IMG/VR virus record: IMGVR_UViG_3300010334_000277
Span: 1-23,941 of that record
Strand: one strand, 5' to 3'
DNA: 23,941 nucleotides
Source: a virus
Shown: positions 534 through 20,886 of the stretch, piece after piece
How the letters are laid out: each line of letters begins with the position of its first letter
Position numbering within the stretch: position 1 is the stretch's first letter
Notes under the pieces: generated by a model
Database searches by the model: none
Told to the model about the DNA's origin: nothing
The model's input: only the letters and a program-made list of their open reading frames with translations
Made by a program: the position numbers and the translations under genes

Positions 534-540
534 CTAAATA
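534..540 (+). promoter_or_regulatory. Late-promoter-like motif CTAAATA
   Basis: CTAAATA lies 22 bases before the ATG at 563, with an AGGAG Shine-Dalgarno between. It is one of at least eight plus-strand copies in the window, all next to gene starts, and resembles the T4-family late promoter core TATAAATA. It probably drives the ejection-protein operon. Confidence 0.6.
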
Positions 541-562
541 TTACAATGGTAGGAGACACTCA

Positions 563-1300
563 ATGAGTTTTGGAAAAAGTGGTGGAACACAGGTCACAAC
601 GCCTGGACTAACACCTGAACAACAACAACAGATAGCCACACAAAACAAGTTCTTTACAGAAACTATTGCTCCCACCTACGAACAAGCCGTGCGTGGTGCC
701 AGCAATCTGTATCAAACCGGTGCTCCTGGCGTGACCAATGCAGCCCAGAATCTCGCAGGCACAGCCAGTGCAGCACAGAACACCCTGGGCAGCACAGGTG
801 AAAGTGCTTTACGCAGTGGTATCACCGGCCTGCAGAATTTATTCACTCCAGAATACGAACGCCAACAACTGGATGCTGCCATGATGCCAGCACAGGCACA
901 ATATCAACAGAACCTGGCCAATCAAGCAGCCATGTTTGGTGGTGCAGGTCAGTTGGGGTCAGCAAGACAAGCATTGGCCGGCACACAGTTGGCAGGCAAT
1001 GCTGCCGCAGCACAACAGGCCGCAGCCGCTGGTGTGTTGAGAGACATCAACTCACAAAGACTATCGGCAGGCAGCAGCCTGGCACAACTGGGTCAAGGTG
1101 GTATTGGACAGGCCCTGGGTGCTGCTGGACAACAGGTCACAGCCGCAATGACACCACAACAACTATACAATCAATACGCTTCTGTGATCTTTGGAACACC
1201 AGCCAGCACTTATACACCTGACTTCCGTGGCACACAAAGCAGCACAGTAAGCAGCCAAGGATACCGAGCAGGCGTAGACTTCAAGTTCCCAGGACTATAA
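563..1300 (+). CDS. Putative DNA-ejection / internal virion protein (245 aa)
   Basis: The start is set at the ATG at 563 because AGGAG sits 7-8 bases upstream; an in-frame ATG at 401 lies inside the preceding gene and has no such signal. The product is rich in Ala, Gln and Gly and is mostly predicted helical. A long stretch has repeated QAA, GQLGSARQALAG and AAAAQQAAAAG-type segments, and the C-terminus has aromatic and Gly content. This composition and the position just before a transglycosylase-bearing internal protein match podovirus ejection proteins (the P22 gp7/gp20 or T7 gp14/15 functional class), which leave the capsid and form a conduit for DNA. The class is inferred from composition and neighbours, not from a catalytic motif. 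Confidence 0.65.
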   Translation: MSFGKSGGTQVTTPGLTPEQQQQIATQNKFFTETIAPTYEQAVRGASNLYQTGAPGVTNAAQNLAGTASAAQNTLGSTGESALRSGITGLQNLFTPEYERQQLDAAMMPAQAQYQQNLANQAAMFGGAGQLGSARQALAGTQLAGNAAAAQQAAAAGVLRDINSQRLSAGSSLAQLGQGGIGQALGAAGQQVTAAMTPQQLYNQYASVIFGTPASTYTPDFRGTQSSTVSSQGYRAGVDFKFPGL

Positions 1301-1301
1301 T

Positions 1302-4046
1302 ATGGCAAACCTTTCACCTTACGATTACAATTTGGGAGATTTTGCTGATTATCAGATGCCTGAAACTGAAGAAGAACGCCAACGGCGTCTGGCAGCAGAA
1401 GCAGCAGCACGAACCCCTGTGAAACAAACAATCACCACTGATCCTGTCACTGGTGAACAAAACATGACCATATCAGGCAATGTGCGTGATCTTGGTCCAG
1501 AAAACACACTCACACCCACAGTGTATGGTGCAGGTGAGGCCGCCACCCGAGGTTTTCAAGCAGTTCAACCAGCAGAAGTGGATACTGGCGCTGTGTATAA
1601 CCGCATGATCCAGGCCGAATCTGGTGGCAGACAATATGATCGCAATGGTCAGATCCTGACCAGTCCAAAAGGTGCTTTGGGCATGGCACAGGTCATGCCC
1701 GCCACAGCATTGAATCCCGGATACGGCGTGAGGCCAGCCACCATGGAAGAAATTAGCACACCCGAAGGCAATCGTGCTTTTGGACAGAGATATTTCCAAG
1801 GCCTGCTGAACTATTTTGGTGGCGATGTGCAAAAAGCCACAGCAGCATACAATGGTGGTCCAGGTCGTGTGAGTAGAAATGTGTCAGCCAATGGTGGCCA
1901 ACTGAATGTGGCACAACTGCCTGCAGAAACACAACAGTATCTTCGTGCAGTGGGTCCCATAGCACCTGCTCAGGCAGCAGCACCAATACAAACAGAAACA
2001 ATCATGTCATCAGCCCCGGCAGCAAATGCAGGTGTAAGACCGGGTGCTGTGTTAGGTCAGGGCGGAACTGCCACACAAGAAGGCACAGCCGGTGAAATTC
2101 CAGCACAACAGGCCATGGCTGAAGCCAACAATAGATTTGTTGCTGCCCAGGCACAGCCCGAAGCCATGGTATCCTTGGCACAAGACTCTGCTGCTCAACC
2201 TTGGCTCAGAGCCTTGGCAAGAGATCAAGTGGTTGAAAACTTGACACAAGCCCGAGAAAAAGAAAAAGCCACTCGCGAAGTGGAAGCAGCACGCCAAGAC
2301 CCCAATGCCTTGGCTCGCATGTTGCAGGCCAAATCATCCGAACAAGGTTCCTATGCCAAGGCCATGCTGTTCAGCATATTAGGCATGGAAAAGAGTGCTG
2401 CGGATGAAGCAGCCAAACTGGGCATTGGTAGCAAATGGAGCACCATGACAGATGTCAACGGCAAGACCGCATTGATCAAGGTGCGTTCAGATGGTGTGCC
2501 ATTGGAAGGCTACGACAGTTCTACCGGACGACAACTCAACAGCAATGATCTTGTGGCTGTGTTGGGTGCCGGTCAACGCAAGTTGGACATCGTTGGTGGC
2601 ACCTATGTGAATGATACCACTGGTGAAGTGGGTCGTGCAATCTCTGATAAAACTACCGGAATCACTTATATCCAAACTGACACTGGACGCAAAGGTATGA
2701 CTGGATTCCGTCCACAAGGCAATGCCGGCACCTTGGAAATGCAACGACAGGCACAGATACAAAAACAAAACATCGATCTGGCTGGTGATTATGCCAAAAC
2801 ACAGATGCGTATACAAGGTGCTGCACCAGAAGCATACAACAAGTTCATTGGTGAATTCAATGCCAAATGGGGCACCAACTTTACCATCAAGGATTTTGCT
2901 GGAGGTCCTCCACAGATTGACCTAACCACTAATCGTGTGGTCAGTTCAGCACCAGCCGCAGTGGCACCTGCCGCATCAGCCACACCAGCAGCAGCAAGCA
3001 CAGTTTCCGGAGCAGTAGCACCTGAAGCAACCGGAGTATCAGGAGCAGCACCAGCCGCAGTGGCAGCAGGTCCAGTAGTTCCTGTGGTCAGTGGCGGCGG
3101 TGCAACAACAGTTTCTACCGCAGGCAAAACACCTGCACAGATCCTCAAGGCCGAAGAAGACGCCAAACGAGCCGCCGATGAAGCCCGTGCTGCTCGCGAA
3201 GCCGAAAACAAAAAACGCTTGGCCATCGAAGAAGCACAAGGCAAACAACCTGTTGAAGTTGGCACAGCAGAACAAAAAGACTTTGTCACATACAAAACCA
3301 CTGTGCAAGACAAGGCCGAGTCTGGACGAGATGTGGCAAGAGTCACTCGTTCACAAGTAAAAGATCTCATGCAAGATCCTGTGATTATTGGTATCATGAA
3401 TGGATCAGGCACACAATATGCTGCTGCTGGCAAACTGATCCGTGAAATGGCTGCAGGTGCTTATAGTGATGACGACAACGGTAAACGCCTGGCAGATGAC
3501 ATCCGTGGATTGAGCCTTACACAACCACAAAAAGATGCTTTGAGCCGTTATGCTCAAGCCAATACCAGTATAAATCGTGCCACACTCAAAGCCAACAGCG
3601 GTGCAGGTTCTATCAGCAATGCTGAACAGACTGCTAACAAAGCAGCCAACATGACCAATATTGGTGATCTAACACCATTTGCTGCTCTAACTGGATTGTC
3701 ACGCAGATCATACATGGGAGACTTGACACAAGAAAAAGCCGCTATGTTGGCCGCCAGTAAATATGTCACTCGTGATCAGTTCGATCAAGCCTGGCAGAAA
3801 ATTGAAGATCAACGAGTTAAACAATACGACGGAATCTATCGTGCTCGCCTGGACTTAATCAAACCTTTTGCAGAAAAAGCCACAGCCAATCCAAATGATG
3901 CACAAGCACAACAGCGTTATCGTGATGCAGCCATACACGCATTCCGTGTATATCCCACACCAGAATACACAGCAGGAGTAGGATGGACTTTTCCCACCAA
4001 AGAAAGCAAACAGGCTGCTATGGCGGCCATAGCAGGAGATAGATAA
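1302..4046 (+). CDS. Internal virion protein with lytic transglycosylase (SLT) domain (914 aa)
   Basis: This large virion protein carries an SLT-type muramidase near its N-terminus. The catalytic Glu is visible in QAESGG (E106), followed by GALGMAQVMPATA (residues 124-136) and AAYNGGPGRV (181-190), the classic order for family 1 transglycosylases. Residues about 600-680 are Ala/Pro-rich and then charged and coiled-coil-like. The C-terminal third is helical and resembles large internal ejection proteins. Such proteins (T7 gp16 is the model) cut peptidoglycan locally so the DNA channel can cross the wall. The gene starts two bases after the preceding stop and ends in a TAATG overlap with the next gene, so the three are probably translationally coupled. 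Confidence 0.88.
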   Translation: MANLSPYDYNLGDFADYQMPETEEERQRRLAAEAAARTPVKQTITTDPVTGEQNMTISGNVRDLGPENTLTPTVYGAGEAATRGFQAVQPAEVDTGAVYNRMIQAESGGRQYDRNGQILTSPKGALGMAQVMPATALNPGYGVRPATMEEISTPEGNRAFGQRYFQGLLNYFGGDVQKATAAYNGGPGRVSRNVSANGGQLNVAQLPAETQQYLRAVGPIAPAQAAAPIQTETIMSSAPAANAGVRPGAVLGQGGTATQEGTAGEIPAQQAMAEANNRFVAAQAQPEAMVSLAQDSAAQPWLRALARDQVVENLTQAREKEKATREVEAARQDPNALARMLQAKSSEQGSYAKAMLFSILGMEKSAADEAAKLGIGSKWSTMTDVNGKTALIKVRSDGVPLEGYDSSTGRQLNSNDLVAVLGAGQRKLDIVGGTYVNDTTGEVGRAISDKTTGITYIQTDTGRKGMTGFRPQGNAGTLEMQRQAQIQKQNIDLAGDYAKTQMRIQGAAPEAYNKFIGEFNAKWGTNFTIKDFAGGPPQIDLTTNRVVSSAPAAVAPAASATPAAASTVSGAVAPEATGVSGAAPAAVAAGPVVPVVSGGGATTVSTAGKTPAQILKAEEDAKRAADEARAAREAENKKRLAIEEAQGKQPVEVGTAEQKDFVTYKTTVQDKAESGRDVARVTRSQVKDLMQDPVIIGIMNGSGTQYAAAGKLIREMAAGAYSDDDNGKRLADDIRGLSLTQPQKDALSRYAQANTSINRATLKANSGAGSISNAEQTANKAANMTNIGDLTPFAALTGLSRRSYMGDLTQEKAAMLAASKYVTRDQFDQAWQKIEDQRVKQYDGIYRARLDLIKPFAEKATANPNDAQAQQRYRDAAIHAFRVYPTPEYTAGVGWTFPTKESKQAAMAAIAGDR

Positions 4047-4858: not shown

Positions 4859-5338
4859 ATGAATCCATTAGATCAACTACACGAAGAACTCACACGCACT
4901 TATGGCAGTGTGTTTGTGGCCTATCAACGAGCACACATAGCACACATCAACACTCGCAGTAGAAACTTCTACGGCGATCACAAGTTGCTAAAACACATCT
5001 ATGAATTCTTACAAGATACCATTGATACAGTAGGTGAAAAGATACAATCATGCGGTCTGGGTGGCGTGCCCACCAGCATTGAAGATACCATGAACTTGAG
5101 TTCAGTTGATGACGAGCCTGTAGAAGGCGACGCAGATGCATTGCTACACACGGTGTGGGAAGATCTCAACACCTTGATTGATGTTTATCATGATCTGGCT
5201 GATGCTGCGAGACAAGTGAACTATCCAGATGTGGACAACATGGCAGCAGATCACATTGGTCGGATTGCTACCTTTGCTTGGAAGATTGAGGCTACCTTGG
5301 ATCTTGAAGGACGCCACACACGCAGAGCACCCATTTGA
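4859..5338 (+). CDS. Dps-like ferritin-fold protein (159 aa)
   Basis: Residues about 28-71 align without gaps, by eye and from memory, with the first ferroxidase segment of Dps (E. coli: AHWN, NF, H, LDTMAER, LGG). Here the segment reads AHIN, NFYGDH, IDTVGEK, LGGVP. The metal-binding positions H29, H41, D56 and E60 correspond to Dps H51, H63, D78 and E82, while Dps D67 is Lys45. The C-terminal helix IGRIATFAWKIEATLD resembles the Dps KFLWFIES helix, and 159 aa matches the usual Dps length of 150-190. Dps proteins oxidise Fe(II), store iron and in some cases bind DNA. The gene follows the ejection-protein genes by three bases, with AAGG upstream, so it should be made late with virion parts. 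The fold is fairly convincing; activity is uncertain because of the Lys45 change. Confidence 0.72.
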   Translation: MNPLDQLHEELTRTYGSVFVAYQRAHIAHINTRSRNFYGDHKLLKHIYEFLQDTIDTVGEKIQSCGLGGVPTSIEDTMNLSSVDDEPVEGDADALLHTVWEDLNTLIDVYHDLADAARQVNYPDVDNMAADHIGRIATFAWKIEATLDLEGRHTRRAPI

Positions 5339-5387: not shown

Positions 5388-5915
5388 CTAACTGGGGCTC
5401 AACGAAACGGCAGGCGTGGCTTGTGTCGTGTTCAATCTCTTATAAGCATATGATCCTCGCACATCATATCCTAACCGGCGATGCAGATCCAAAAACCCAG
5501 ATTGGTCTCGTCGCATGGTAGTGCTGCACACTATATTCACTCCACATTCTCTTGCCCAGGTCTCCCATAACACAACCATGCCTGTGACCAGGCGTAATCT
5601 CTGTCGAACAGGCAAGGTCAAGTCCACATGTGCTATCTTTACACAAATCAACTCCTCATCTGACCATGGGGTTTTTTCGCCGCGGATAGCCCAGACATAA
5701 GCCAAGATACGATCAGTTTCTGCTTGTTTAGCGACTTTTAACAACTCCAGGCCAGGATTGTAGAATTGTGCCACTGTGGCCATGGTCAAGTTTCTTGCGT
5801 AGGCAATGGGATCCGGCACAAACACCCGATCTATTTCAGTTTCGAAATGATCTTGTGCCATTTTGACCAGTGTGGCCACATCTGTGCCTGTGGTGCTGTT
5901 CCATGTCCATTTCAT
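5388..5915 (-). CDS. GNAT-like acetyltransferase family protein (175 aa)
   Basis: The minus-strand start ATG at 5915 is preceded by AAGGAA. The C-terminal half has the shape of a GNAT fold: strands in ICVKIAHVDLTL (90-101), a helix over LVTGMVVLWETWAREC (109-124), a strand in VNIVCSTT (126-133), and the closing FLDLHRRLGYDVRGSYAYKRL (141-161), where GNATs usually read 'F..LG+...G....'. The usual acetyl-CoA loop Q/RxxGxG/A is not clear, so activity is uncertain. It is transcribed divergently from the HNH gene, from one half of a palindromic late-promoter element. The target is unknown; it may modify a host or virion protein. It could also be a conserved marine-phage hypothetical with a GNAT-derived fold. 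Confidence 0.6.
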   Translation of the reverse strand: MKWTWNSTTGTDVATLVKMAQDHFETEIDRVFVPDPIAYARNLTMATVAQFYNPGLELLKVAKQAETDRILAYVWAIRGEKTPWSDEELICVKIAHVDLTLPVRQRLRLVTGMVVLWETWARECGVNIVCSTTMRRDQSGFLDLHRRLGYDVRGSYAYKRLNTTQATPAVSLSPS

Positions 5916-5936: not shown

Positions 5937-5944
5937 TATTTATG
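5937..5944 (-). promoter_or_regulatory. Late-promoter-like motif CATAAATA for the minus-strand GNAT-like gene
   Basis: On the minus strand CATAAATA lies 21 bases before the ATG at 5915. With the plus-strand copy at 5946-5953 it forms the perfect 17-bp palindrome TATTTATG-A-CATAAATA. Confidence 0.6.
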
Positions 5945-5945: not shown

Positions 5946-5953
5946 CATAAATA
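5946..5953 (+). promoter_or_regulatory. Late-promoter-like motif CATAAATA for the HNH gene
   Basis: CATAAATA on the plus strand ends 18 bases before the ATG at 5972, with AAGGAG between. It matches seven of eight bases of the T4 late core TATAAATA. It is the right half of a back-to-back pair serving two divergent genes. Confidence 0.6.
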
Positions 5954-5971: not shown

Positions 5972-6526
5972 ATGGCCAAAAAACAGCCTCGAACACAAGT
6001 ATACGATCTCATGATCCGTTGGGATTACTACCAGAGACATCAGGTGCCCAATGCAAATGCACAAGGTTGCACACACTGGAATGCTGGCCGGCACAAACAA
6101 GGATATGGCATGGTAGGTGCCATCCGCATCAGTGATGGAGAAGACATCATGGTCACCACACACCGAGTGGCAGCACGCCTCAAATACGGTCGTGCCATAG
6201 ATTCAAAAGAAATGGTGTTGCACACCTGTTCAAACATGGCCTGCATGAATCCAGATCACTTGATCATCGGAGACCGTGCGGACATGCAGGACATCATGGT
6301 GGCCAACAAGCGACACAGATATGGTATCAAGATCAGGATCAAACTGCCCACACCAAAAGCAGTGGCTGAAAAAATGTCAGATCATGACCTGGCTCGGGTG
6401 TTTCTCATGCCCAATGAACAGATACAACGGGAGTTCCACATGAGTCCTTATCGCAGCATGCATCTCAAACGGGCTTGTGGAGTAGAACGCCGTCGGCGTC
6501 GAATCACACGCCTGGGCTTGGAATAG
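5972..6526 (+). CDS. HNH homing-type endonuclease (184 aa)
   Basis: The start is the ATG at 5972 because AAGGAG lies 8 bases upstream; the in-frame TTG at 5957 lies ahead of that signal. The HNH core is visible: C33/W36, GYG (44-46), THRVAARLKYG (63-73), then VLHTC (82-86) and CMNPDHLIIGD (91-101). This pattern is the HNH_3 style with H-x-C...C-x-N-P-x-H-L. A basic C-terminal region (ERRRRRI) probably binds DNA. Such free-standing phage HNH proteins nick or cut DNA and often spread by homing. It stands alone between the GNAT-like gene and a structured intergenic segment, which fits an inserted element. No intron was found in flanking genes. Confidence 0.88.
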   Translation: MAKKQPRTQVYDLMIRWDYYQRHQVPNANAQGCTHWNAGRHKQGYGMVGAIRISDGEDIMVTTHRVAARLKYGRAIDSKEMVLHTCSNMACMNPDHLIIGDRADMQDIMVANKRHRYGIKIRIKLPTPKAVAEKMSDHDLARVFLMPNEQIQREFHMSPYRSMHLKRACGVERRRRRITRLGLE

Positions 6527-6669: not shown

Positions 6670-6677
6670 TATTTATG
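6670..6677 (-). promoter_or_regulatory. Late-promoter-like CATAAATA on the minus strand
   Basis: The minus-strand octamer CATAAATA is identical to the two in the 5937-5953 palindrome. It has no protein gene directly downstream but faces the structured element at 6660-6535. It lies just beyond the terminator of the minus-strand early cassette. Confidence 0.4.
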
Positions 6678-6710: not shown

Positions 6711-6893
6711 TTAGGCCATGTGCTTGATTTGTTTTTGTGGCTGTGCCCGCACTGGATACTTATCCATACGCGGTAGTTCTCGAACCAGGGCTTCTTGCAT
6801 GAGTTCCAGGCACTGATCCGCACCGTGCGTTTGCACCAGCCTTTGGATTATGCTTTGGAGACGCAGGCGATCCATCAAGAGTTGGTGGTTCAT
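6711..6893 (-). CDS. Small helical protein, last gene of early cassette (60 aa)
   Basis: The start at 6893 overlaps the previous stop (ATGA) and is preceded by GGAGG. The stop is directly followed by the cassette terminator. The product is a basic, mostly helical protein (for example LQSIIQRLVQTHGADQCLELMQEALV) ending in a Lys/Gln-rich tail. No family is recognised. Small early phage proteins of this kind often act on host machinery, but nothing in this sequence shows a target. Confidence 0.6.
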   Translation of the reverse strand: MNHQLLMDRLRLQSIIQRLVQTHGADQCLELMQEALVRELPRMDKYPVRAQPQKQIKHMA

Positions 6894-7793: not shown

Positions 7794-7856
7794 TTGGTGC
7801 TCCTTAAAGCGTTGTTGATAAGTGTGTAGTATAGCACTTCACGCGATACTGGTCAA
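7791..7856 (-). repeat. Direct repeat copy A: duplicated early promoter and leader
   Basis: The 66 bases match 8200-8265 in the same orientation at 57 of 66 positions, with a 32-base identical core covering the -10 box and leader. It includes promoter, 5' leader, Shine-Dalgarno and start codon of the gene at 7793. Confidence 0.9.
7828..7856 (-). promoter_or_regulatory. Early sigma70 promoter (TTGACC-17-TATACT)
   Basis: Read on the minus strand, TTGACC (7856-7851) and TATACT (7833-7828) are separated by exactly 17 bases, each one base or so from the bacterial consensus. Transcription should start near 7821 and read genes 7793 to 6711. The -35 box directly abuts the stop codon of the 43-aa gene upstream. 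Confidence 0.85.
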
Positions 7857-8202: not shown

Positions 8203-8265
8203 TTCATGCTCCTTGAAGCGTTGTTGATAAGTGTGTAGTATAGCACTCTTGCCGATACCGGTCAA
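8200..8265 (-). repeat. Direct repeat copy B: duplicated early promoter and leader
   Basis: This is the partner of 7791-7856, of equal length and same orientation, with 9 mismatches that fall mainly in the promoter spacer and beside the start codon. Confidence 0.9.
8237..8265 (-). promoter_or_regulatory. Early sigma70 promoter (TTGACC-17-TATACT)
   Basis: On the minus strand TTGACC (8265-8260) and TATACT (8242-8237) are 17 bases apart. It drives the 69-aa and 43-aa genes and has the same -35 and -10 boxes as the promoter at 7828-7856. Confidence 0.85.
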
Positions 8266-8360: not shown

Positions 8361-8367
8361 CTAAATA
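8361..8367 (+). promoter_or_regulatory. Late-promoter-like motif CTAAATA
   Basis: CTAAATA lies 18 bases before the ATG at 8386, with GAAGGA between. The 8266-8360 stretch upstream is AT-rich and shows no other clear signal. Confidence 0.6.
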
Positions 8368-8385: not shown

Positions 8386-9129
8386 ATGGCAACAAATCAA
8401 CTAAATGCGGCTGAATCACAAATACCGCGAGAAGTATATAAAGACTTAAAGATTAAACTATTGATCTCGCAAGAAGGAGGCGAAGATCAAGACAGGGAGA
8501 AGGTCTCTGCGAGACCTGCCTTTGGCCCCGAGGGCAAGCCCTCGAATCCACTGGCCTTTGACTTCGTCACCTCTCCCGAGGAAGTCCCCCAAGAGAGAGA
8601 GGTTAGTTGTATCAGCCCGCGAGAACTATGTTCTCGCTATTCAGGCATCAGTGTGCAGCATGCTCGAACTGACCGAGGCATCAAGGTATACATCACACTA
8701 CAACAATCGGATTGGGTGCCAACCGGTGCTGTGCAGTTGGCCACAGCAGAACTCAAACGCAGTGATCGATTGAGAGAAGTGCGAGCCCGAGAGGATGACA
8801 GCGAAGAGTTTGCGGCTTATCTGGATGATGCCAAACAACAACTACGACCACAAAAGGCACAAGTGGCCATGGGCAGATTGCATCAACGCAACAAACGCAG
8901 CAGTTGGATCTATGACACCGTGATGGTGGCTTTCTTCGAAAATGACAAAATGAACAAAGTGCTGTTGTATCTTGAAGGAGAAGAAGTTATTATAGATATG
9001 GATCGAGAAATGAGCATGAACCAACAACGATACTATCACTGCCAAGGCTTGCTGGGCACTATACACGGCAACAAGAAAGTGCCAAGACTCAGCGATCTTC
9101 CTTTGAGCCGGTTTGGAAAACAATCATGA
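8386..9129 (+). CDS. Hypothetical protein with hairpin-dense 5' region (247 aa)
   Basis: The ATG at 8386 is preferred over the in-frame GTG at 8371 because GAAGGA precedes it. Residues 26-85 are charged and Pro-rich and are encoded by a chain of inverted repeats (see 8461-8637). The rest looks folded: ISVQHARTDRGIKVYITLQQ (about 86-105), a charged helical region, then strands in WIYDTVMVAFFENDKMNKVL and LYLEGEEVIIDMDREMSMNQ. I recognise no family. It shares an ATGA overlap with a small CxxC protein gene downstream and is preceded by a late-type motif, so it is probably a late gene. Confidence 0.75.
   Translation: MATNQLNAAESQIPREVYKDLKIKLLISQEGGEDQDREKVSARPAFGPEGKPSNPLAFDFVTSPEEVPQEREVSCISPRELCSRYSGISVQHARTDRGIKVYITLQQSDWVPTGAVQLATAELKRSDRLREVRAREDDSEEFAAYLDDAKQQLRPQKAQVAMGRLHQRNKRSSWIYDTVMVAFFENDKMNKVLLYLEGEEVIIDMDREMSMNQQRYYHCQGLLGTIHGNKKVPRLSDLPLSRFGKQS
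8461..8637 (+). other. Chain of five inverted repeats inside a coding sequence
   Basis: Successive hairpins: TTGATCTCGC/GCGAAGATCAA (8461-8490, one bulged A); AGGTCTC-tgc-GAGACCT (8501-8517); CGAGGG-caag-CCCTCG (8529-8544); GACTT...AAGTC enclosing CCTC-tccc-GAGG (8560-8586); GCGAGAAC-tat-GTTCTCGC (8619-8637). A further ACCTCTC/GAGAGGT pairing (8569-8575 with 8597-8603) competes with the fourth. The words GCGAG and CTCGC recur. The frame stays open throughout. Confidence 0.8.
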
Positions 9130-9339: not shown

Positions 9340-9798
9340 ATGAGCACATTCTACTACAAGAAACTACACACCATGGAACCCCGAGCAGGCAGAAAGTATG
9401 CCACGGTGTATATCAAACAAAGTGCCGAGGAGCATGGTCGCTTGCTCGCCTGGCTTACAGAACGAGCACAGGAAATCTTGGCAGTGTGCGAACACTATCC
9501 GGACATGGCAGAATGGTTCCAACGACCCTGTAGAGACTTTCCACGCAGTCGAAAACATGACTTCTACACACCCGAAGACATACTCACGGACATGATTCAA
9601 CAGTTGAGTCTGGGACGAGACTTGCCCAGGGCAATGTGGGCTCGCTGGAATAGACTGACGGATCAAACCCCTTGGACAATAACCATGCTCGGGCCTCAGG
9701 GTCAAGCACTTGATGTTCACGATACTCAATCCGGCGTGGCCTCCACTCGCGAGCAGTCCGCATCCATCTCCACTCTAAATAACCTATTTTCATATTAA
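9340..9798 (+). CDS. Hypothetical protein (152 aa)
   Basis: The start is the ATG at 9340, with only a weak GAG upstream; a TAAATA-like hexamer in GTAAATA (9317-9323) lies 16 bases before it. The product is soluble with a helical middle (EEHGRLLAWLTERAQEILAV, DILTDMIQQLSLGRDLPRAM) and Trp/Arg-rich segments. The C-terminus is Ser/Thr-rich and less ordered. No family is recognised. The late-type motif for the next gene lies inside its last codons. Confidence 0.65.
   Translation: MSTFYYKKLHTMEPRAGRKYATVYIKQSAEEHGRLLAWLTERAQEILAVCEHYPDMAEWFQRPCRDFPRSRKHDFYTPEDILTDMIQQLSLGRDLPRAMWARWNRLTDQTPWTITMLGPQGQALDVHDTQSGVASTREQSASISTLNNLFSY
9775..9781 (+). promoter_or_regulatory. Late-promoter-like motif CTAAATA
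   Basis: CTAAATA sits inside the end of the preceding gene, 23 bases before the GTG at 9805. No clear Shine-Dalgarno precedes that GTG. Confidence 0.45.
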
Positions 9799-10441: not shown

Positions 10442-10448
10442 CTAAATA
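10442..10448 (+). promoter_or_regulatory. Late-promoter-like motif four bases from an ATG
   Basis: CTAAATA, then CAAC, then the ATG at 10453. No Shine-Dalgarno is present. If transcription starts six bases after the motif, as in T4 late promoters, the message begins at the start codon. Confidence 0.55.
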
Positions 10449-10452: not shown

Positions 10453-10794
10453 ATGGAACAGATCATTCAAAAACAAACACAGGGTGGAGCACGACCCGGA
10501 GCAGGCAGACCCAAGGGCTCCAAAGCCCGTGTGAGTGTGGAAAGCCTCCTGGCAGAATTAGAACTCAGGGCTCCTGGTGAGAGTTATGAAGCACTGCTGT
10601 TAGAAGACTTCTTGAGAGCCAGACTGGAAGACGACAAAGGCCTGGTGCTGAAGTATCACAATCTCATCCTGAACAAGGTCATGCACACCCTGACCACTGT
10701 GGAGGTGGTGGAAGGTCAAGACGCCATCGACGCCAAGAGCCGTGCTTTTGCAGAAGCCATAGCACAGATAGTGGGTATTCCCGCCAAGGACTAA
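10453..10794 (+). CDS. Putative terminase small subunit (113 aa)
   Basis: The N-terminal motif GGARPGAGRPKGSK (residues 11-24) is frequent at the start of phage small terminases and related DNA-binding proteins. It is followed by predicted helices (VSVESLLAELELRAPGESYE, LLLEDFLRARLEDDKGLVLK, LILNKVM) and a C-terminal helix ending GIPAKD. The small subunit binds phage DNA and starts packaging with the large subunit, encoded here about 2.6 kb downstream on the same strand. Length fits the lower end of the family. The assignment rests on the motif and location. The distance from terL is larger than usual, so another DNA-binding role remains possible. Confidence 0.6.
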   Translation: MEQIIQKQTQGGARPGAGRPKGSKARVSVESLLAELELRAPGESYEALLLEDFLRARLEDDKGLVLKYHNLILNKVMHTLTTVEVVEGQDAIDAKSRAFAEAIAQIVGIPAKD

Positions 10795-10797
10795 ATA
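10791..10797 (+). promoter_or_regulatory. Late-promoter-like motif overlapping a stop codon
   Basis: CTAAATA includes the TAA stop of the previous gene (10792-10794) and lies 23 bases before the ATG at 10821, with AAGGA between. Confidence 0.55.
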
Positions 10798-10820: not shown

Positions 10821-11054
10821 ATGCCATTAGACAAAAGCAAAAGCCCTAAAGCGTTCCAAAAGAACATCCGCACTGAACTGAAAGAAGGCAAGCCAATGAA
10901 ACAGGCAGTGGCCATCGCATATGACATTGCTGGCAAGAAAAAGAAGATGGGCGAGAAAATCTCTGACACCATGAAAAAAGACAAGATGCACAAGATGAAA
11001 GATGGCAAGATGATGAAAGACTCTGCTATGAAATCCAAAGGAAAAACCAAATGA
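10821..11054 (+). CDS. Lys/Met-rich small conserved phage protein (77 aa)
   Basis: The start follows AAGGA. The N-terminal half (PLDKSKSPKAFQKNIRTELK, EGKPMKQAVAIAY) is a pattern I recognise in many phage genomes ('K..KPxKQAVAIAY'), usually near structural genes and without assigned function. The C-terminal half is almost all Lys, Met, Asp and Gly (MKKDKMHKMKDGKMMKDSAM), suggesting a disordered, nucleic-acid-binding tail. ATGA overlaps the next gene. A DNA-condensing or virion-packaged role is a guess. Confidence 0.75.
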   Translation: MPLDKSKSPKAFQKNIRTELKEGKPMKQAVAIAYDIAGKKKKMGEKISDTMKKDKMHKMKDGKMMKDSAMKSKGKTK

Positions 11055-13102: not shown

Positions 13103-13422
13103 TCTCTGAACCCACCCTACGCGATGGCATGATCCATCAGGCCCGAGAGGATCGCATGGCACGAGATGTCAAGATCATGCAGGGCGTGAATGCTGCTCAC
13201 CGTGAAGCATTTGGTCAGAAGTTTCCTGGACAACTGGAACACTCAATGCGACTGATTTCTGAACGCCTGCAACAGATCCTGACCAAGCCGCCAGGAACAG
13301 AATTGGCCAATCCTGTCACATGGCCAGGCACTGCACTGGAGATTGCTGACCTGTCCCAGGCCCTGTGGCATCTACAACAGGTGCGACTGAGCCTACCCGT
13401 CACCTCCACTGCAAGTGAATGA
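13099..13422 (+). CDS. Small helical protein in the terminase operon (107 aa)
   Basis: The start is the ATG overlapping the previous stop (ATGA at 13099-13102). Its end overlaps the terminase start by ATGA as well, so three genes form one coupled unit. The protein is helical, with basic N-terminal helices (IHQAREDRMARDVKIMQG, MRLISERLQQILTK) and a C-terminal helix (TALEIADLSQALWHLQQVRL). It is an alternative candidate for the terminase small subunit because it sits immediately before terL. Confidence 0.65.
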   Translation: MISEPTLRDGMIHQAREDRMARDVKIMQGVNAAHREAFGQKFPGQLEHSMRLISERLQQILTKPPGTELANPVTWPGTALEIADLSQALWHLQQVRLSLPVTSTASE

Positions 13423-15029
13423 TCGATCCAGGCGTGCTCATGCGTCGGGCTGTGAGATACTGTTGCGAACAGAATCAAATTGAACCCGAAAACATAGCCA
13501 CACTGCCGGTGGCACTCCGTGCTGATTTTGAAGCATTAGTGATCGCAGTGCAGGAACACATGCAGTACAACCAACTGCACTACTTCAGACCATTCCTCCA
13601 CCAGCGGAGTTTCTTCACCACCATCTCAAATCGTCGTGGTATCCTGGCAGCCAACCGGATTGGCAAAACAGTTTCAACCTGTGCAGAAACAGCCATGCAT
13701 CTCACAGGCATCTATCCTGACTGGTGGCAGGGTCATAGGTTTGACAAACCCATAACCTGCATGGTGGCCGGTGAAGGATGGAGTCAGGTGGCCCTGGTGC
13801 TGCAACAAGAACTGCTGGGCACACCTGACATCAAACTGCGTGACAACATTGGCACAGGCATGATACCCAGGTCAGAGATCATACAGGACACCATGCGTGG
13901 TGATGGAGCCAACGCCATTGGCATTGAGATACGCCATGCCACAGGAGGCAAGAGTTATCTGTTGTTTGCCAACTACACTCAAGAGGTTCGCCAACTGCAA
14001 GGTTTCAAACTGGATCTGGCTGTGTTTGATGAGCAGCCTCCTGATGATTTCTTTAGTGAGATCGTGACCAGAACAGCCACCACACAAGGCATGATCCTGT
14101 GCTCATTCACACCACTCAAAGGTCTCAATGGCCTGGTGAGCAAGTTCTGGAATCGTGAACAAGGCTATGATTACATCCGTGTGAGTTGGGATGATGTGCC
14201 TGAATATGATCTATGGCACGAACCATTCTTGCTGAAGAGCACAAGAGATCAGTTAGAGCGTGATTATCTACCACACGAACGCGAAGCCAGGATGCAGGGT
14301 CGACCCATCATGGGCAAGGGTGCTGTGTTCCAGATCCGTCAATGGCCCACATACCAGTCGGGTGATTTTGACTTCCGGCAACGGTCAAACATACACAGGA
14401 TCATTGCTCTTGACCTGGGGCTGGTGAACGACAAAACTGTGATCACCTTGATGTATTGGGATCCTTACGAGCGTGAAGCATGGTTGCACCGGCAGATCAT
14501 GGTGCAAGGTGTGGAAGAGGCTGTGCCCACACAATATATCAACCACCTCTTACGGCCCGAAGTGTTTGGCACGCCCATAGTGTTGCCAGCAGATGCCTCC
14601 ACCCCTGGACGCTATACCATGAGTGTGAACAGCATCCGAGAACTGTTCGAATCTTATGAACTCAATGTGTTGCCGGGTGCCATCATGAATCCAGCAGACG
14701 ATCAAGGTCGACGCACCAACCACAAGAGTTATGGCATAAACCAGATGCGGCAGATGTTGGAAGTGGGCAGTCTGCATGTGAATGAAAACTGCGTGGACTT
14801 CTTGAGAGAAGCACAGAACTACTATGTGGATTCACAAGGCAGATTCTCGGACCCTGATGATTGTATTGACTCAGCGAGATATGCCATCCTGGGTTGCTTG
14901 CAAGGCATGGCCGAACCCTGGGACAACCGCACCCCCATGGACCGCATGCGAGCACAACGCAACCAGATCCGCTTGCCGGATGAATCAAACAAACCTGCGT
15001 GGAAACGCAGTTATAACCCACAAGGATAA
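13419..15029 (+). CDS. terL: Terminase large subunit (536 aa)
   Basis: This is the packaging motor ATPase and headful nuclease. Walker A is AANRIGKT (77-84), Walker B is LDLAVFDEQ (198-206) with E205 as the expected catalytic Glu, and a coupling-type segment CSFTPLKG follows (228-235). The nuclease carboxylates are D332 in IALDLG, D392 in LPADAS and D484 in DCIDSARY. The total length and 'GGKSYLLFANYTQEVRQLQG' region match podovirus-type terminases. ATGA overlap couples it to the 107-aa gene; a 73-aa gene follows after one base. Confidence 0.95.
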   Translation: MIDPGVLMRRAVRYCCEQNQIEPENIATLPVALRADFEALVIAVQEHMQYNQLHYFRPFLHQRSFFTTISNRRGILAANRIGKTVSTCAETAMHLTGIYPDWWQGHRFDKPITCMVAGEGWSQVALVLQQELLGTPDIKLRDNIGTGMIPRSEIIQDTMRGDGANAIGIEIRHATGGKSYLLFANYTQEVRQLQGFKLDLAVFDEQPPDDFFSEIVTRTATTQGMILCSFTPLKGLNGLVSKFWNREQGYDYIRVSWDDVPEYDLWHEPFLLKSTRDQLERDYLPHEREARMQGRPIMGKGAVFQIRQWPTYQSGDFDFRQRSNIHRIIALDLGLVNDKTVITLMYWDPYEREAWLHRQIMVQGVEEAVPTQYINHLLRPEVFGTPIVLPADASTPGRYTMSVNSIRELFESYELNVLPGAIMNPADDQGRRTNHKSYGINQMRQMLEVGSLHVNENCVDFLREAQNYYVDSQGRFSDPDDCIDSARYAILGCLQGMAEPWDNRTPMDRMRAQRNQIRLPDESNKPAWKRSYNPQG

Positions 15030-15271: not shown

Positions 15272-15278
15272 CTAAATA
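15272..15278 (+). promoter_or_regulatory. Late-promoter-like motif four bases before the portal ATG
   Basis: CTAAATA, then ACAT, then the portal ATG at 15283. No Shine-Dalgarno lies at a usable distance. Confidence 0.6.
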
Positions 15279-15282: not shown

Positions 15283-17559
15283 ATGCTTGATATAAAATAC
15301 ATTCCAGTTGATGACATCAACACCAATCGACCACAAAACGCACGATTTGTGCGGATGAAAAACATGATGGATGTGAAGATGGCATCCTATCTACGCTATC
15401 TGGGGACTAAAAATGCCATCAACCGTGCTTCTGATTATCATTATCTATGCCTTGCCGTCACTGATTCTACGGCTCCTGTAAACGGCATAGACTACATCCA
15501 CCCTACCGTGAAGCCTGTGGTAGATTACACCACAGCAGTGATTGCCAAAGGACTGGCACCCAATGGTGAGGTCAACTTTTCATTTGTGGCTGACGGTTCT
15601 GACGATGATGCTGCTGCCCGCCAGGCAAGTGAAATGGTCAGCCATGTGATCAACGAAATGAATGATCCGCACTTTTTGTTAGAGCGTTGGATCATGGATG
15701 CCAACATGCACAAGAATGGCATGATGATGATCATGCCCATACGCGAACCCATCACCAGGTATGTAGAAACCACAGGCACAGCAGATCAACTCAGAGCCTT
15801 CGAACAACAAGCAGCAGACTCCGGACTCACTGCCATGCGTCAAAGCCGCAGACGCACCAATGTGGACATGAGTCGCGTGGCAGAAGAAATGAAACAACTG
15901 CTGCCTGAACAGAATCAGCAGTTGATGCAGGATCAGATGGACCAACATCTTGCTGACATGACTAATGATGACACTGATCCAGAAAGTTTCACAGCAGATC
16001 AACAAGAAGCAGCGCAGGGCGAAGTAGAAAGCCAGCAACAACTGTTGAATGAAGCCATCACTCGCAACTCAATCTACACTGCCCGATACAAACTTACCGG
16101 CTACAACATCCGCATCAAGTTCAACCCCATAGCACAGCACTTCTGGATCTGTGATCCCACAGTGCCTGAAATGAGAGATCAGCCATTCTGCGGCTACTAT
16201 GATCCAATGACCATCCAGGAAGCCATGGAACTGTATCCTGGCATTGACCTGGAACAGTTTGAACGCCATGCTGAATACAACATGAACGGTGCTTATCAAG
16301 CCGGTTCGGTGCTGAACAACCTGGCCATCCACGCAAGAGATTCGGTGCCTATCATGGGTGTGCCGGTAGATTCAGCAGCATCAGCGGATCCAGACAGCCG
16401 ACAAGTCAGTATCGTCACTGTTTGGAACAAGTTTGACATTGATGATGACGGTGAACTGGAACTGGTAGAACTGATCTATTCAGGCACATATATCATATCG
16501 GCCAGAGAAGTGGAGTTTATCCCTGTGGCCAACATGTGCCCACGCCCATTACCCGGCAACTTCTACGGCATGAGCGTGGCTGAGAGTGTGATCCCCATGC
16601 AGGAATACAACACTTCAGCAGCCAGAGCCGAAATACAACTGGGCTTGCTCACAGCCACACCGCGTATCGGTGTGAAACCCGACAGACTGGACTTTGAAAT
16701 GCTGCAGGATGGCGAATCAGCCATCTTCATCCTGGATTCAAAGTTTGATCCTGCCAAAGACATCTACGCATTACCACCCCCATCAGGCAATCTCCAGTTC
16801 TTGGAAGTGGCCATGAACCGTATCCAACAGGATACCATGGCCATGGTCGGTATGACCACACCACAAGATGTGTTCAATCCAGAGGTGATGTCACCTGGAA
16901 ACTCAGGCATCAAACTGCAGATGGCTCTCACACCCAATCAGATCATCCAGGACAATATTGTTCGCAATTCAGCAGATGGTGTGAAAGAAGCCATCTGGTT
17001 GGTATGGCGAACCTTGATACAATACGGTGATGACTATGGTGTGAAGAAACTGGCACAGAAGAGTCACCCTGATAAAAAACCAGAATTCCTGGATTACATG
17101 TCCTGGGATGACATGAATTTCTGTGACCGCAAACACATTGAGATGGAACTGGCCCTGGGCATGCGTAGTGAAGAGAACGCACTGGGTCGCCAACAGATCA
17201 TCCAGAAGTGTCAGGCAGACTTGTACAACACCACACAGGCCATGGTAGCACAAGGCACACTCACACCTGAAGTTTACAAGAAGGTCAAGAAGCCATTCTC
17301 TGACACCTTGTATATCCTGGGAGTGAAAGACGCTGATAGTTATCTGCCCAGCGATGATGAGGTCATGGTGATGATCAAGCAAGCAGCAGAAGCAGCCAAG
17401 AACCGCCAGCCATCTCCAGAAGATCAGGCACGCTTGGCCAAGGCACAACTGGATCAGACTCGTGCTCAACAGATACAACACGAAGTGTCGGGCACTGATG
17501 CTAACAGCCAACTGGACTTCATGGCAGTGGCCGCTGGCACACCCAAAGTTTACAACTGA
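15283..17559 (+). CDS. Portal protein (758 aa)
   Basis: The portal is the dodecameric ring at one capsid vertex through which DNA enters and leaves. Length matches large podovirus portals (P22 gp1 about 725 aa). The recognisable section is CPRPLPGNFYGMSVAESVIP followed by MQEYNTSAARAEIQLGLLTA (about 414-455), a conserved portal pattern in which a helical clip/stem region follows a 'GxS' turn. Residues about 185-265 are a Gln/Glu-rich coiled-coil insertion. The C-terminus (about 700-740) is Gln/Ala-rich and helical, as expected for a barrel. The gene begins a late unit that continues into the scaffold and capsid genes. Confidence 0.9.
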   Translation: MLDIKYIPVDDINTNRPQNARFVRMKNMMDVKMASYLRYLGTKNAINRASDYHYLCLAVTDSTAPVNGIDYIHPTVKPVVDYTTAVIAKGLAPNGEVNFSFVADGSDDDAAARQASEMVSHVINEMNDPHFLLERWIMDANMHKNGMMMIMPIREPITRYVETTGTADQLRAFEQQAADSGLTAMRQSRRRTNVDMSRVAEEMKQLLPEQNQQLMQDQMDQHLADMTNDDTDPESFTADQQEAAQGEVESQQQLLNEAITRNSIYTARYKLTGYNIRIKFNPIAQHFWICDPTVPEMRDQPFCGYYDPMTIQEAMELYPGIDLEQFERHAEYNMNGAYQAGSVLNNLAIHARDSVPIMGVPVDSAASADPDSRQVSIVTVWNKFDIDDDGELELVELIYSGTYIISAREVEFIPVANMCPRPLPGNFYGMSVAESVIPMQEYNTSAARAEIQLGLLTATPRIGVKPDRLDFEMLQDGESAIFILDSKFDPAKDIYALPPPSGNLQFLEVAMNRIQQDTMAMVGMTTPQDVFNPEVMSPGNSGIKLQMALTPNQIIQDNIVRNSADGVKEAIWLVWRTLIQYGDDYGVKKLAQKSHPDKKPEFLDYMSWDDMNFCDRKHIEMELALGMRSEENALGRQQIIQKCQADLYNTTQAMVAQGTLTPEVYKKVKKPFSDTLYILGVKDADSYLPSDDEVMVMIKQAAEAAKNRQPSPEDQARLAKAQLDQTRAQQIQHEVSGTDANSQLDFMAVAAGTPKVYN

Positions 17560-17583
17560 TTTGATTCGTGATTGGAGTATGAT

Positions 17584-17928: not shown

Positions 17929-17938
17929 CCCAATAATA

Positions 17939-17945
17939 CTAAATA
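17939..17945 (+). promoter_or_regulatory. Late-promoter-like motif CTAAATA upstream of scaffold
   Basis: CTAAATA lies 41 bases before the ATG at 17987, which has AAAGGA. It would drive scaffold and major capsid protein up to the terminator at 20362. Confidence 0.6.
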
Positions 17946-17986
17946 AAGCACACAGGGTAAGCACACGCCCCCTACAAAGGAAAAAC

Positions 17987-19144
17987 ATGACAGAAATGAT
18001 CAAGCCTAATGCTCCAGACAGCACGGCCAATGACACACCAGTAGCGACTTCTATTGAATCAATAGCGTCCAAGATGACCGCAATGAGAGAACATACTCTG
18101 CGTAATCTGATTAGACCTACAACAGAGTCCTCGGCAGGAGCAGATGAGTCGGCAGACACATCCAGCCCTGTGGCACCAGAACAGGTAGCCGAAGATGACA
18201 CTATCTATGACGATGGTAATGCAGGAGATATCACAGGATCTGAAGCCCAGACTGAGTCTGTAAGTGAACCAGAAAACACATCCGGTGAAGAGTTGATTGA
18301 TTTTATTGAGTTTGCCGAAACAAACCCCAACGCCAAGTTCAAGTTTGTTCGCAACGGAAAAGAAATCGTAGTCGACGCTCGAAAGGCCGCAGCAATACTT
18401 GGTCAAGGTGGAGCCATCCATGAAGAAGCACGCCAGTTAAAAGTGGAGCGAGCCGAGTTCGAGGAATACACTCGAGACTTGAGGGAACGCCAAGAAGGTT
18501 TAACATTGGCCATGGAGTTTACGGTGCAACCGCGTTTGCAAAGTGCGTATGATGAGATTGTGAAAACACAAGGTTATCAGACAACTTTCCAACAACAGAT
18601 GGCAAACACATCGGACCCCGCACAACGGGCAAGATTGCAGGCCAGCATGCAGCAGAATGAACAATACATTCGCCAGCAGCAAGAGTTGATTGGTCAGTTG
18701 AAACCAGCAGTGGATCAGTTTCGGCAGGTTCGCAAGCAGCAAGTGCAGTCAGTCCTGGAGAACAACCGCAAGGCGTTCACAGACAAGGAGTTGAAAAACG
18801 AATATGTCTACAACGAACTGCGAAACAACATCTCCAAGGTATGGCCCGAAGCCCGGTCAGAGTTAGTGCCAGGTATACCCAACATAGATCTCATCTCTTC
18901 GGATGAAAACTTGTTGAGTCTTGTGAGAGACGGATTGAAATACCGTAATGGACCCAAGACAAAAACAGCCGGATCCAGCATCGCACAATTGACCATGCGT
19001 CGTGGCAGTAGCACCCAGGGCAAAAACCCATCCAGTGATATAGCCAAACTTCGTGAACAAGCCAAGAGCGGCGATAAAAAAGCCGGAGACAACCTGTTGA
19101 TGCAACGACTCACACAGATTCGTTCAGCAAGAGGTGGTAGATAA
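17987..19144 (+). CDS. Capsid scaffolding protein (385 aa)
   Basis: Its position directly before the major capsid gene, together with a highly acidic, Ser/Thr-rich, probably disordered N-terminus (about residues 45-110), points to a scaffold. A central coiled-coil region (about 150-260, rich in Glu, Gln and Arg, for example QQNEQYIRQQQELIGQLKPA) and a basic C-terminal end (MQRLTQIRSARGGR) complete the profile. Scaffolds guide procapsid assembly through a basic C-terminal capsid-binding helix and are then released. Residues 114-138 (NAKFKFVRNGKEIVVDARKA) form a small ordered segment. No protease signature is visible. Confidence 0.8.
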   Translation: MTEMIKPNAPDSTANDTPVATSIESIASKMTAMREHTLRNLIRPTTESSAGADESADTSSPVAPEQVAEDDTIYDDGNAGDITGSEAQTESVSEPENTSGEELIDFIEFAETNPNAKFKFVRNGKEIVVDARKAAAILGQGGAIHEEARQLKVERAEFEEYTRDLRERQEGLTLAMEFTVQPRLQSAYDEIVKTQGYQTTFQQQMANTSDPAQRARLQASMQQNEQYIRQQQELIGQLKPAVDQFRQVRKQQVQSVLENNRKAFTDKELKNEYVYNELRNNISKVWPEARSELVPGIPNIDLISSDENLLSLVRDGLKYRNGPKTKTAGSSIAQLTMRRGSSTQGKNPSSDIAKLREQAKSGDKKAGDNLLMQRLTQIRSARGGR

Positions 19145-19170
19145 TATAGCCAACATTCAAGGAGAATAAA

Positions 19171-20343
19171 ATGGCAGAAATCACAACCAGTCAAATTGGT
19201 AACGGAACTACTGCATATGCCAGTGACATCGTTGTCAAAGACTTAGACTTAGATGTAAGCAATCGTATCAAAGACGATACCCCCGTGTTGAACATGTGCA
19301 TGAGCAAGAAGCGTAAAGTAAACTCTACACTTCCATTGTGGACTGACGACATCTATCGCTTGCCTTCAGCACAAGCGGTTCAAGAAGGAGCCAATGTTTC
19401 TACTGCCAACGCAGAAAGCAACAGCCGTTATAACCTGGCCAACTACACACAGATCTTCCAGACCACAATCGCTGCGTCCGGAACTGCTCGTGCTGTTATG
19501 CAGTCAGGTGGCGATCCCCAGGCATACCAAGAAGTCAAGCAACTGATCGAACTCATGTTCGATGTGGAGCAACAACTTGTTCGTGCAGACCAGATCGGCA
19601 CACAATACGGTGGACAGACAGGCACAGCCATCACCAACCCAACCACTGCCCAAACCGGCGGTCGTCGTATGGGTAGCCTGGCTTCGTTTGCTGGCACATT
19701 GAGTTTCAACCCTTCAAATGCTGCCATCGCCAACATCACCACAAACACCAACAACGCAAGTTCTGACAGTTCTGTGGCCAATGTGGGTAATCTGGTTATC
19801 AACTCAAACGGAACTCAGTTCTACACCGGCACATTCACCAACCAAGTGTTCCAGCCTGTGATCTACAAGCAGTTGGTGACCGTGGCTGAACAACGCTACA
19901 ATGCCAAGATCCGTACCATGGTTGTTCCAACCAGCCTGCGTACCATGATCTCTGACAATATCGTGAACAGCAACACCAGCATCAACCGTCGTAATGTGGA
20001 GCGTGGCGACACAATCCAGACTTACGAAGGTGACTTCAACTACACCTACGAAATCTATGATTCCTGGATCATGGACCAGTCTGGTGTGAGCAACTCCATC
20101 TACTTCTTGAATGAAGATGTGTTGCAGTGGGGTAGTCTGCGTGATCTGGGACCCAACAACGAAGTGTTCTCCAACGCTGACGCAAGTTTGGACCAGTTCC
20201 TGATGGAAGGTACCTTGATTGTTCGCAATCCAGCAGGCGTTGGTCTGTTGAACAACATCAGCACAACTGGTGCAGCAGCCAGTTCACCACGCGGTGCGAG
20301 TTTTGTTAGTCGTACCAACGCAGGTGGCGGCGACACATACTGA
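19171..20343 (+). CDS. Major capsid protein (390 aa)
   Basis: It follows the scaffold by 26 bases with AAGGAG upstream. Codon use is more regular than in neighbouring genes, as expected for an abundant protein. Recognisable patterns are DDTPVLNMCMSKKRKVNSTL then LWTDDIYRLPSAQAVQEGAN (35-74), RYNLANYTQIFQTTIAASGT (86-105) and EGDFNYTYEIYDSWIM late in the protein. These match, as I recall them, the SU10-type (DUF5309) capsid family with an HK97-like fold. The middle (about 150-215) is Asn/Thr/Ser-rich and may be a surface insertion. A strong terminator follows the stop. Confidence 0.92.
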   Translation: MAEITTSQIGNGTTAYASDIVVKDLDLDVSNRIKDDTPVLNMCMSKKRKVNSTLPLWTDDIYRLPSAQAVQEGANVSTANAESNSRYNLANYTQIFQTTIAASGTARAVMQSGGDPQAYQEVKQLIELMFDVEQQLVRADQIGTQYGGQTGTAITNPTTAQTGGRRMGSLASFAGTLSFNPSNAAIANITTNTNNASSDSSVANVGNLVINSNGTQFYTGTFTNQVFQPVIYKQLVTVAEQRYNAKIRTMVVPTSLRTMISDNIVNSNTSINRRNVERGDTIQTYEGDFNYTYEIYDSWIMDQSGVSNSIYFLNEDVLQWGSLRDLGPNNEVFSNADASLDQFLMEGTLIVRNPAGVGLLNNISTTGAAASSPRGASFVSRTNAGGGDTY

Positions 20344-20361
20344 TCCCCGGATTGGTAAAAC

Positions 20362-20386
20362 AAAAAGGCTCTTCGGAGCCTTTTTT
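20362..20386 (+). terminator. Strong terminator after the major capsid gene
   Basis: GGCTC-TTCG-GAGCC with five A before and six T after, 18 bases past the capsid stop. The A-run could make it work in both directions. The moron promoter begins two bases after the T-run. Confidence 0.95.
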
Positions 20387-20387
20387 G

Positions 20388-20416
20388 TTGACATTTTGTT
20401 GCTCTTATGCTATATT
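20388..20416 (+). promoter_or_regulatory. Moron promoter P1 (TTGACA-17-TATATT)
   Basis: A perfect -35 (TTGACA 20388-20393), a 17-bp spacer and TATATT (20411-20416). The transcript should begin near 20423, where ACGGTG-tgagc-CACCGT (20423-20439) would form a 5' hairpin. Confidence 0.88.
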
Positions 20417-20465
20417 ACTAATACGGTGTGAGCCACCGTGTCCAGGATCAAGTTAGCCTTTTTGT

Positions 20466-20494
20466 TTGCTAATGTATCGTCGCGGCTGTATAAT
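20466..20494 (+). promoter_or_regulatory. Possible second moron promoter P2 (TTGCTA-17-TATAAT)
   Basis: TTGCTA (20466-20471), 17 bases, then the perfect -10 TATAAT (20489-20494), about 37 bases before the ATG at 20532. The -35 overlaps the 3' arm of a small TTAGC/GCTAA inverted repeat. Confidence 0.6.
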
Positions 20495-20531
20495 ACATAC
20501 TAATGCGAGAGCAGATACAAAGGACGAAAAT

Positions 20532-20822
20532 ATGGCAAACAAAGAACACGAACAGCAAGAAATAATTGAAGTATTGCGTGGATCACGCCGCCTGGATTGG
20601 CACGAATACATGAACAAGCGTCAGGCAGAAATCCGAGCATTCAAAGAACAATATGGCGATGGCGATGGCACAGATGAAAAGTTTTTTAAAAAACATGATG
20701 AGCGTAATCTTCAAGAATCTAATCTCATGAGGTCCTGGTGCGAGGCATTGTATCCAGAAGAAAAAGGATATCAGTCTGCTGGCAAATATGACATCACAAT
20801 ACTGATAACAAAACGACAATAA
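20532..20822 (+). CDS. Moron gene, unknown function (96 aa)
   Basis: The ATG at 20532 follows AGGA; in-frame readings from 20466 would begin inside the P2 promoter. The protein is highly charged and helical (EHEQQEIIEVLRGSRRLDWH, NKRQAEIRAFKEQYGDGDGT) with a short beta-like C-terminus (GKYDITILITKRQ). No family is recognised. It lies alone between a terminator and its own promoters on one side and a second terminator on the other, inside the late morphogenesis region. This is the layout of a moron, which can be expressed independently of late genes, sometimes from a prophage or early in infection. Confidence 0.8.
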   Translation: MANKEHEQQEIIEVLRGSRRLDWHEYMNKRQAEIRAFKEQYGDGDGTDEKFFKKHDERNLQESNLMRSWCEALYPEEKGYQSAGKYDITILITKRQ

Positions 20823-20826
20823 CACC

Positions 20827-20849
20827 AGCCCCGAGAGGGGCTTTTTTTT
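20827..20849 (+). terminator. Terminator of the moron
   Basis: AGCCCC-GAGA-GGGGCT with eight T, four bases after the moron stop codon. Confidence 0.95.
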
Positions 20850-20879
20850 GTGGAGTAAGACCTGTTATTGAAGAGAGCA

Positions 20880-20886
20880 CTAAATA
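20880..20886 (+). promoter_or_regulatory. Late-promoter-like motif restarting late transcription after the moron
   Basis: CTAAATA, then CAAG, then the ATG at 20891. It lies just beyond the moron terminator and would restore late expression of head-tail genes. No Shine-Dalgarno is at a usable distance. Confidence 0.6.

Follow-up and report, generated by a model that had tools for sequence, protein, structure and literature searches.

CTAAATA boxes as probable T4-type late promoters in a family of small aquatic podovirus-like phages with no recognisable late sigma factor

The viral DNA analysed here, the IMG/VR record IMGVR_UViG_3300010334_000277 of 23,941 bases (the whole of which is called the window below), carries repeated copies of the word CTAAATA among the virion genes of a podovirus-like phage, and the question raised by this locus is whether these boxes are late promoters of the T4 type and, if so, which sigma factor would read them. 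The window is a piece of a large and widespread aquatic family of small podovirus-like phages, relatives of its capsid or terminase being encoded on more than 500 IMG/VR stretches. Twenty of the longest IMG/VR relatives were examined along with GenBank MW202484; the 21 family genomes mentioned below are the window and these 20 relatives, the 22 genomes include also MW202484, and the orientation was set by the terminase. Eleven of the relatives are complete, as indicated by overlapping ends (an overlap of 2.5 kb in one of them), with lengths of 33.6-36.5 kb.

CTAAATA occurs eight times on the plus strand of the window, all copies being where the initial annotation had placed them, and is absent from the minus strand; dinucleotide shuffles give a mean of 0.95 copies for both strands, with at least eight copies in none of 100 shuffles. 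The same annotation had put every copy shortly before a gene start, which holds for seven of the eight, each upstream of a credible start. The boxes are listed below, the gap being the number of nucleotides (nt) between box and start, and SD denoting a Shine-Dalgarno sequence.

534-540, plus strand: CTAAATA before the SD-led gene 563-1300 (structural family 4), gap 22
5937-5943, minus strand: ATAAATA before the GNAT-like gene 5388-5915 (minus strand), gap 21, SD present
5947-5953, plus strand: ATAAATA before the HNH endonuclease gene starting at 5972, gap 18, SD present
8361-8367, plus strand: CTAAATA before gene 8386-9129, gap 18, SD present
9775-9781, plus strand: CTAAATA within the 3' end of the open reading frame (ORF) 9340-9798, with no good gene behind it and doubtful as a promoter
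10442-10448, plus strand: CTAAATA of the putative leaderless class, before the ATG of 10453-10794 (small GGARPGAGRPKGS protein, family 14), gap 4, no SD
10791-10797, plus strand: CTAAATA before gene 10821-11054 (family 18), gap 23, SD present
15272-15278, plus strand: CTAAATA before the portal gene 15283-17559, gap 4
17939-17945, plus strand: CTAAATA before the scaffold-like gene starting at 17987, gap 41, SD present
20880-20886, plus strand: CTAAATA of the putative leaderless class, before the ATG of 20891-21478 (family 3), gap 4

The variant ATAAATA, which the initial annotation had counted with the motif, is found three times, a number that taken alone is within chance (three copies were reached in 14 of 100 shuffles). 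Two of the copies form a divergent pair before the HNH gene on the plus strand and the GNAT-like gene on the minus strand; the third, at 6670-6676 on the minus strand, looks like a chance copy.

Over the 22 genomes, CTAAATA is present 130 times on the coding strand versus 27 times on the opposite one, and 108 of the 130 coding-strand copies lie at most 100 nt upstream of a start, such stretches making up 9.5% of positions. Enrichment over whole genomes, set beforehand as the point on which the motif could be refuted, is evident also from the 20 relatives with the window left out (119 coding versus 26 opposite; 26 and 29 for the reversed-word control). In the 21 family genomes the box is the strongest start-associated 7-mer, ranking above the Shine-Dalgarno words. 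Orthologous box sites are found, among others, before the portal gene (the site being kept in 19 of the 22 genomes), the gene after the capsid (17 genomes) and the counterparts of gene 563-1300 (14 genomes, or 19 sites if ATAAATA is included). A chance or compositional accident, for which just the doubtful copy at 9775 speaks, is therefore of negligible probability and is ruled out as an account of the motif by the shuffles, by orthologous sites in up to 19 genomes and by the start association across the family. The gap is 4-6 nt in most relatives for family 3 and 41-51 nt in relatives for the scaffold-like gene; the portal box has a gap of 20-27 nt in relatives versus 4 nt in the window, and the family 18 gene shows the leaderless spacing (gap 5) in several relatives.

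With regard to the type of promoter, the extended consensus of the aligned sites is RCTAAATA, the first base of the box near starts being C in 100 cases, A in 30, and G and T in seven each. No conserved -35 hexamer is seen among the aligned sites of the 22 genomes, and what is found is thus a single TAAATA-containing -10 box without a -35 element, on the coding strand before virion genes, as in T4-type late promoters. The resemblance to the T4 late core noted in the initial annotation goes as far as identity with a published promoter, that of the T4-like Aeromonas phage Aeh1, whose late promoter is CTAAATA beginning at -12, with a transcription start inferred at about 6 nt after the box (PMC1524935). 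Aeh1 likewise has no -35 element and carries the box on the coding strand before virion genes; it differs in its genome of 233 kb and in encoding its own gp55. From these sequence features, we consider it very probable that the boxes are T4-type late promoters of the family. It should be added that A/T-rich stretches are present about 13, 24 and 35 nt upstream of the box in the 22 genomes, i.e. spaced by one helical turn, which suggests upstream contacts or bending.

The distance from box to start codon was further evaluated without gene calls, by counting every ATG after every (A/C)TAAATA. An ATG stands at gap 5 in 43 of the 168 family boxes, the background being 2.4 per offset, and two gap classes emerge, one of 4-6 nt without a Shine-Dalgarno sequence and the other of 18-28 nt with one; an SD-like word precedes 5 of 58 starts at gap 4-6 versus 49 of 58 at gap 18-28. 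Several separate gene families have the short gap, although common descent links the copies. With a transcription start some 6 nt past the box, as inferred for Aeh1, the mRNAs with gaps of 4-6 nt would be leaderless, and the two start classes are consistent with such a start. The fixed spacing of 4-6 nt to some ATGs could also be expected if CTAAATA were a signal for translation, processing or replication instead of a promoter; this is very improbable, since the gap classes trade off with the presence of the Shine-Dalgarno sequence, CTAAATA is the reported late promoter of Aeh1, and one box lies directly after a terminator:

20827-20842, plus strand: intrinsic terminator-like hairpin with T-run, 38 bases before the box at 20880

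The same spacing was found in T4-like phages from aquatic environments. In the T4-like pelagiphage HTVC008M (loci L220-L227), the ATG is at gap 5 in 13 of 64 cases, two such starts agreeing with its GenBank annotation, and the pooled environmental T4-like loci (L249-L494) have 97 at gap 5, 3 at gap 4 and none at gap 6. By set, the gap-5 counts are 49, 26 and 22, with 0-2 at gaps 4 and 6; the 49 belong to the HTVC008M-like set, which has none at either neighbouring gap. The class was not seen in P-SSM7, S-CRM01 or Aeh1, each taken alone. In aquatic T4-like phages, late genes thus appear in general to include an exact 5-nt class, with apparently leaderless mRNAs; a description of it was not found in the literature searched, and it matters whichever sigma factor reads the boxes of the present family. 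The Kyanoviridae and HTVC008M share with the family both (A/C)TAAATA on the coding strand and the exact 5-nt class, but they encode gp55. In the pooled aquatic T4-like loci, moreover, a T is frequent at -13, and in HTVC008M the base at -12 is predominantly A.

The main virion genes of the window are as follows.

13419-15029, plus strand: terminase large subunit (PF03237, phrog_2)
15283-17559, plus strand: portal of SU10 type (PF23899)
17987-19144, plus strand: scaffold-like gene, preceded by the CTAAATA at 17939-17945
19171-20343, plus strand: major capsid protein of SU10 type (PF17236, 2.4e-32)

The portal and capsid are of the SU10/phiEco32 type, in agreement with the initial annotation, which had described the structural genes as not T4-like and the capsid as resembling that of phiEco32. 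The phages phiEco32, SU10 and 7-11 share with the family the SU10-type portal and capsid and a related terminase, but they have genomes of 77-90 kb, a sigma factor of their own and promoters of the form tAATGTAtA or GTAAtg-16-aCTA (PMC8948821); since the relatives of the window measure 34-36 kb, not about 77 kb, the family is not phiEco32-like in genome plan. The nearest GenBank relative, MW202484 (Podoviridae sp. ctfne034), has the same gene order, with identities of 50% (terminase large subunit), 45% (portal) and 60% (capsid), but it is 41.8 kb long, carries Erf, SSB, RusA and Cro-like genes, and shows no enrichment of the box.

It was expected beforehand that a gp55-type or phiEco32-type sigma factor would be encoded elsewhere in the genome, and a search for a gp55/gp36-like gene had been proposed; this expectation is not supported, no counterpart of either type having been recognised. 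Three gp55 profiles (phrog_234, phrog_12791 and one built from nine sequences, the last run at full sensitivity on six-frame ORFs) gave no convincing match in 24 family records, 11 of them complete genomes; as controls, phrog_234 scored all nine of nine aquatic T4-like contigs at about 1e-60 and the nine-sequence profile recovered all held-out gp55 sequences, at 1e-27 or better. Profile-profile comparison of the protein families present in at least three genomes gave a probability of at most 1.4% for gp55 (control 99.9%) and at most 3.1% for the sigma factors gp36 of phiEco32 and gp47 of 7-11 (control 7-11 versus phiEco32, 96%). A sigma factor of the phiEco32 type was rejected also because the phiEco32 late box tAATGTAtA is not enriched, AATGTATA being found 12 times forward and 15 times in reverse in the 21 genomes. 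Among the Pfam matches listed for 237 non-structural proteins there is no DNA polymerase, phage RNA polymerase, sigma-70 domain or integrase (two scans, in which matches beyond those listed are weaker than 7e-6 and 3e-4); no sliding-clamp family is among them either, no search aimed at gp33 or gp45 having been made.

Individual candidates fared no better. One gp55 match, in the SLT (transglycosylase) virion protein encoded in the window (3675-3905), was set aside, as it scores 13 bits, occurs in this genome only and gives 0.1% in profile-profile comparison. Only three proteins are both shared by every complete genome and lacking a clear counterpart in MW202484, namely the SLT virion protein, a ferritin/Dps-like protein and a Gly/Asn-rich protein, none of which is plausible as a sigma factor. 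The GNAT-like gene was excluded as a hidden sigma by its predicted acetyltransferase fold and by its presence in the motif-poor MW202484:

5388-5915, minus strand: GNAT-fold acetyltransferase-like protein (model with a predicted local distance difference test score, pLDDT, of 90; GNAT matches in PDB)

Since a box kept across the family calls for a reader that is kept as well, and the genomes contain none that is recognisable, we consider supply of the late sigma in trans by a co-infecting T4-like phage the best of the remaining options, at roughly even probability from the sequences at hand. In the scheme proposed, host sigma-70 promoters (TTGACC-17-TGyTATACT) would in a first stage drive the short variable early region; CTAAATA and, less often, ATAAATA would then act as single-element late promoters spanning about -12 to -6; the host RNA polymerase with a T4 gp55-type sigma would read them and initiate some 6 nt beyond the box, with a leaderless mRNA where the ATG follows by 4-6 nt and a normal leader with a Shine-Dalgarno sequence where it follows by 18-28 nt. 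The most likely donor of the sigma would be a T4-like phage sharing the cell, and the family would then consist of satellite-like phages that encode capsid, tail and terminase themselves.

Several points weigh against this supply in trans. The window is a fragment, not a whole genome. T4 late transcription normally needs gp33 and gp45 as well, both of which the helper would have to supply. No helper phage was identified by matching of the -13/-12 bases or by sample sharing: the family's marked preference for C at -12, combined with A/G at -13, does not recur in the T4-like loci examined, no T4-like set being matched in full, and only four sample ids are shared with T4-like loci, which is uninformative. 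The closest T4-like contig, G024 from the same sample, has C-type boxes with A, G or C and almost no T at -13. Finally, a fast-evolving sigma of the phages' own, encoded in the variable early region, could escape homology search. Such a sigma would have escaped recognition through its small size or its divergence, and would most likely be encoded in the stretch from the GNAT gene to the small family 14 gene; every complete genome has several small unassigned ORFs in the variable early region, behind host-type promoters in several genomes, and phage sigmas diverge fast, gp36 of phiEco32 and gp47 of 7-11 being only 15% identical (PMC8948821). We nevertheless regard it as rather unlikely, because no early gene is shared by all members, unlike the box, which is conserved in the family, and in view of the low profile-profile values given above.

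A host-encoded alternative sigma or activator is a further conceivable reader; it would account for the absence of any phage gene, and the early promoters suggest use of the host polymerase. Yet the box has neither a sigma-70 -10 pattern nor a -35 element and agrees with T4-type late promoters in both sequence and start distance, and we know of no bacterial sigma with a CTAAATA-type target, so that this reading is improbable.

Supply of the sigma by a T4-like phage leads to the tentative possibility that the family consists of satellite viruses of T4-like phages, forming complete tailed virions with late genes driven by the helper gp55. Virophage genes carry the late promoters of their giant-virus hosts, and the family might, by analogy and just as tentatively, be seen as a bacterial counterpart of virophages. 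No recognisable replication gene was found in nine of the 11 complete relatives; a primase/helicase is recognised in four of the 21 genomes (G008, G010, G017 and G019), two of which (G010 and G019) are complete. These modules (VapE, Prim-Pol, DUF5906) are of a kind known from phage satellites. The PHROG 'DNA helicase' phrog_16 was discarded, proving to be a methyltransferase gene in the one member traced. No family relative was found in the GTDB set of 84,980 genomes, and the family is thus not a common prophage.

A precedent for satellite viruses with their own capsid and no replicase is provided by Flayer and Mulch of Streptomyces, Flayer also being without sign of integration (PMC10690885); the present family similarly has its own capsid and packaging genes. 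It differs in that Flayer and Mulch were isolated together with their helpers and lack primases, and a search of that article found no mention of promoters (PMC10690885). A satellite using T4-type promoters was not found in the literature searched.

Should the sigma be donated by a second phage, T4-like phages would have conditional parasites that form a very abundant group among environmental phages, the tie between the two being a readable DNA signal; helpers could be sought directly through the box, and phage abundance in lakes, co-infection and lytic infection would have to be interpreted differently. If the sigma is the phages' own, it would be a new, unrecognised one with T4-late specificity.

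Concerning the early region, TTGACC-17-TG(C/T)TATACT, a host-type promoter with an extended -10, is present in the variable region of several family genomes, the window having two copies:

7828-7856, minus strand: host-type promoter TTGACC-17-TGcTATACT, before small minus-strand genes
8237-8265, minus strand: second copy of the same host-type promoter

Early transcription therefore probably proceeds via the host sigma-70, as judged from these motifs. A host-type element is seen also past the capsid gene, at 20388-20886, where a promoter close to the host consensus (TTGACA-17-TGcTATATT), a small ORF that ends at 20822, a strong terminator and finally the next CTAAATA follow one another; the arrangement has the look of an inserted cassette transcribed independently. 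The variable early region of eight genomes (the window at 6711-6893, minus strand, and G002, G003, G004, G009, G011, G012 and G013) encodes a protein of 45-60 amino acids with the pattern R-L-R ... G ... EL, of a similarity below ordinary BLAST clustering. It was considered as a regulator, and also as the phages' own sigma, and is real, but its restriction to these eight genomes speaks against both; it has no match in a T4-like genome and one weak match in a Streptomyces phage.

One further gene of the window should be mentioned:

4859-5338, plus strand: ferritin/Dps-like protein (PF00210, 1.4e-8)

It is present in all 21 family genomes, and has relatives of about 30% identity in the environmental T4-like contigs G024 and G027.

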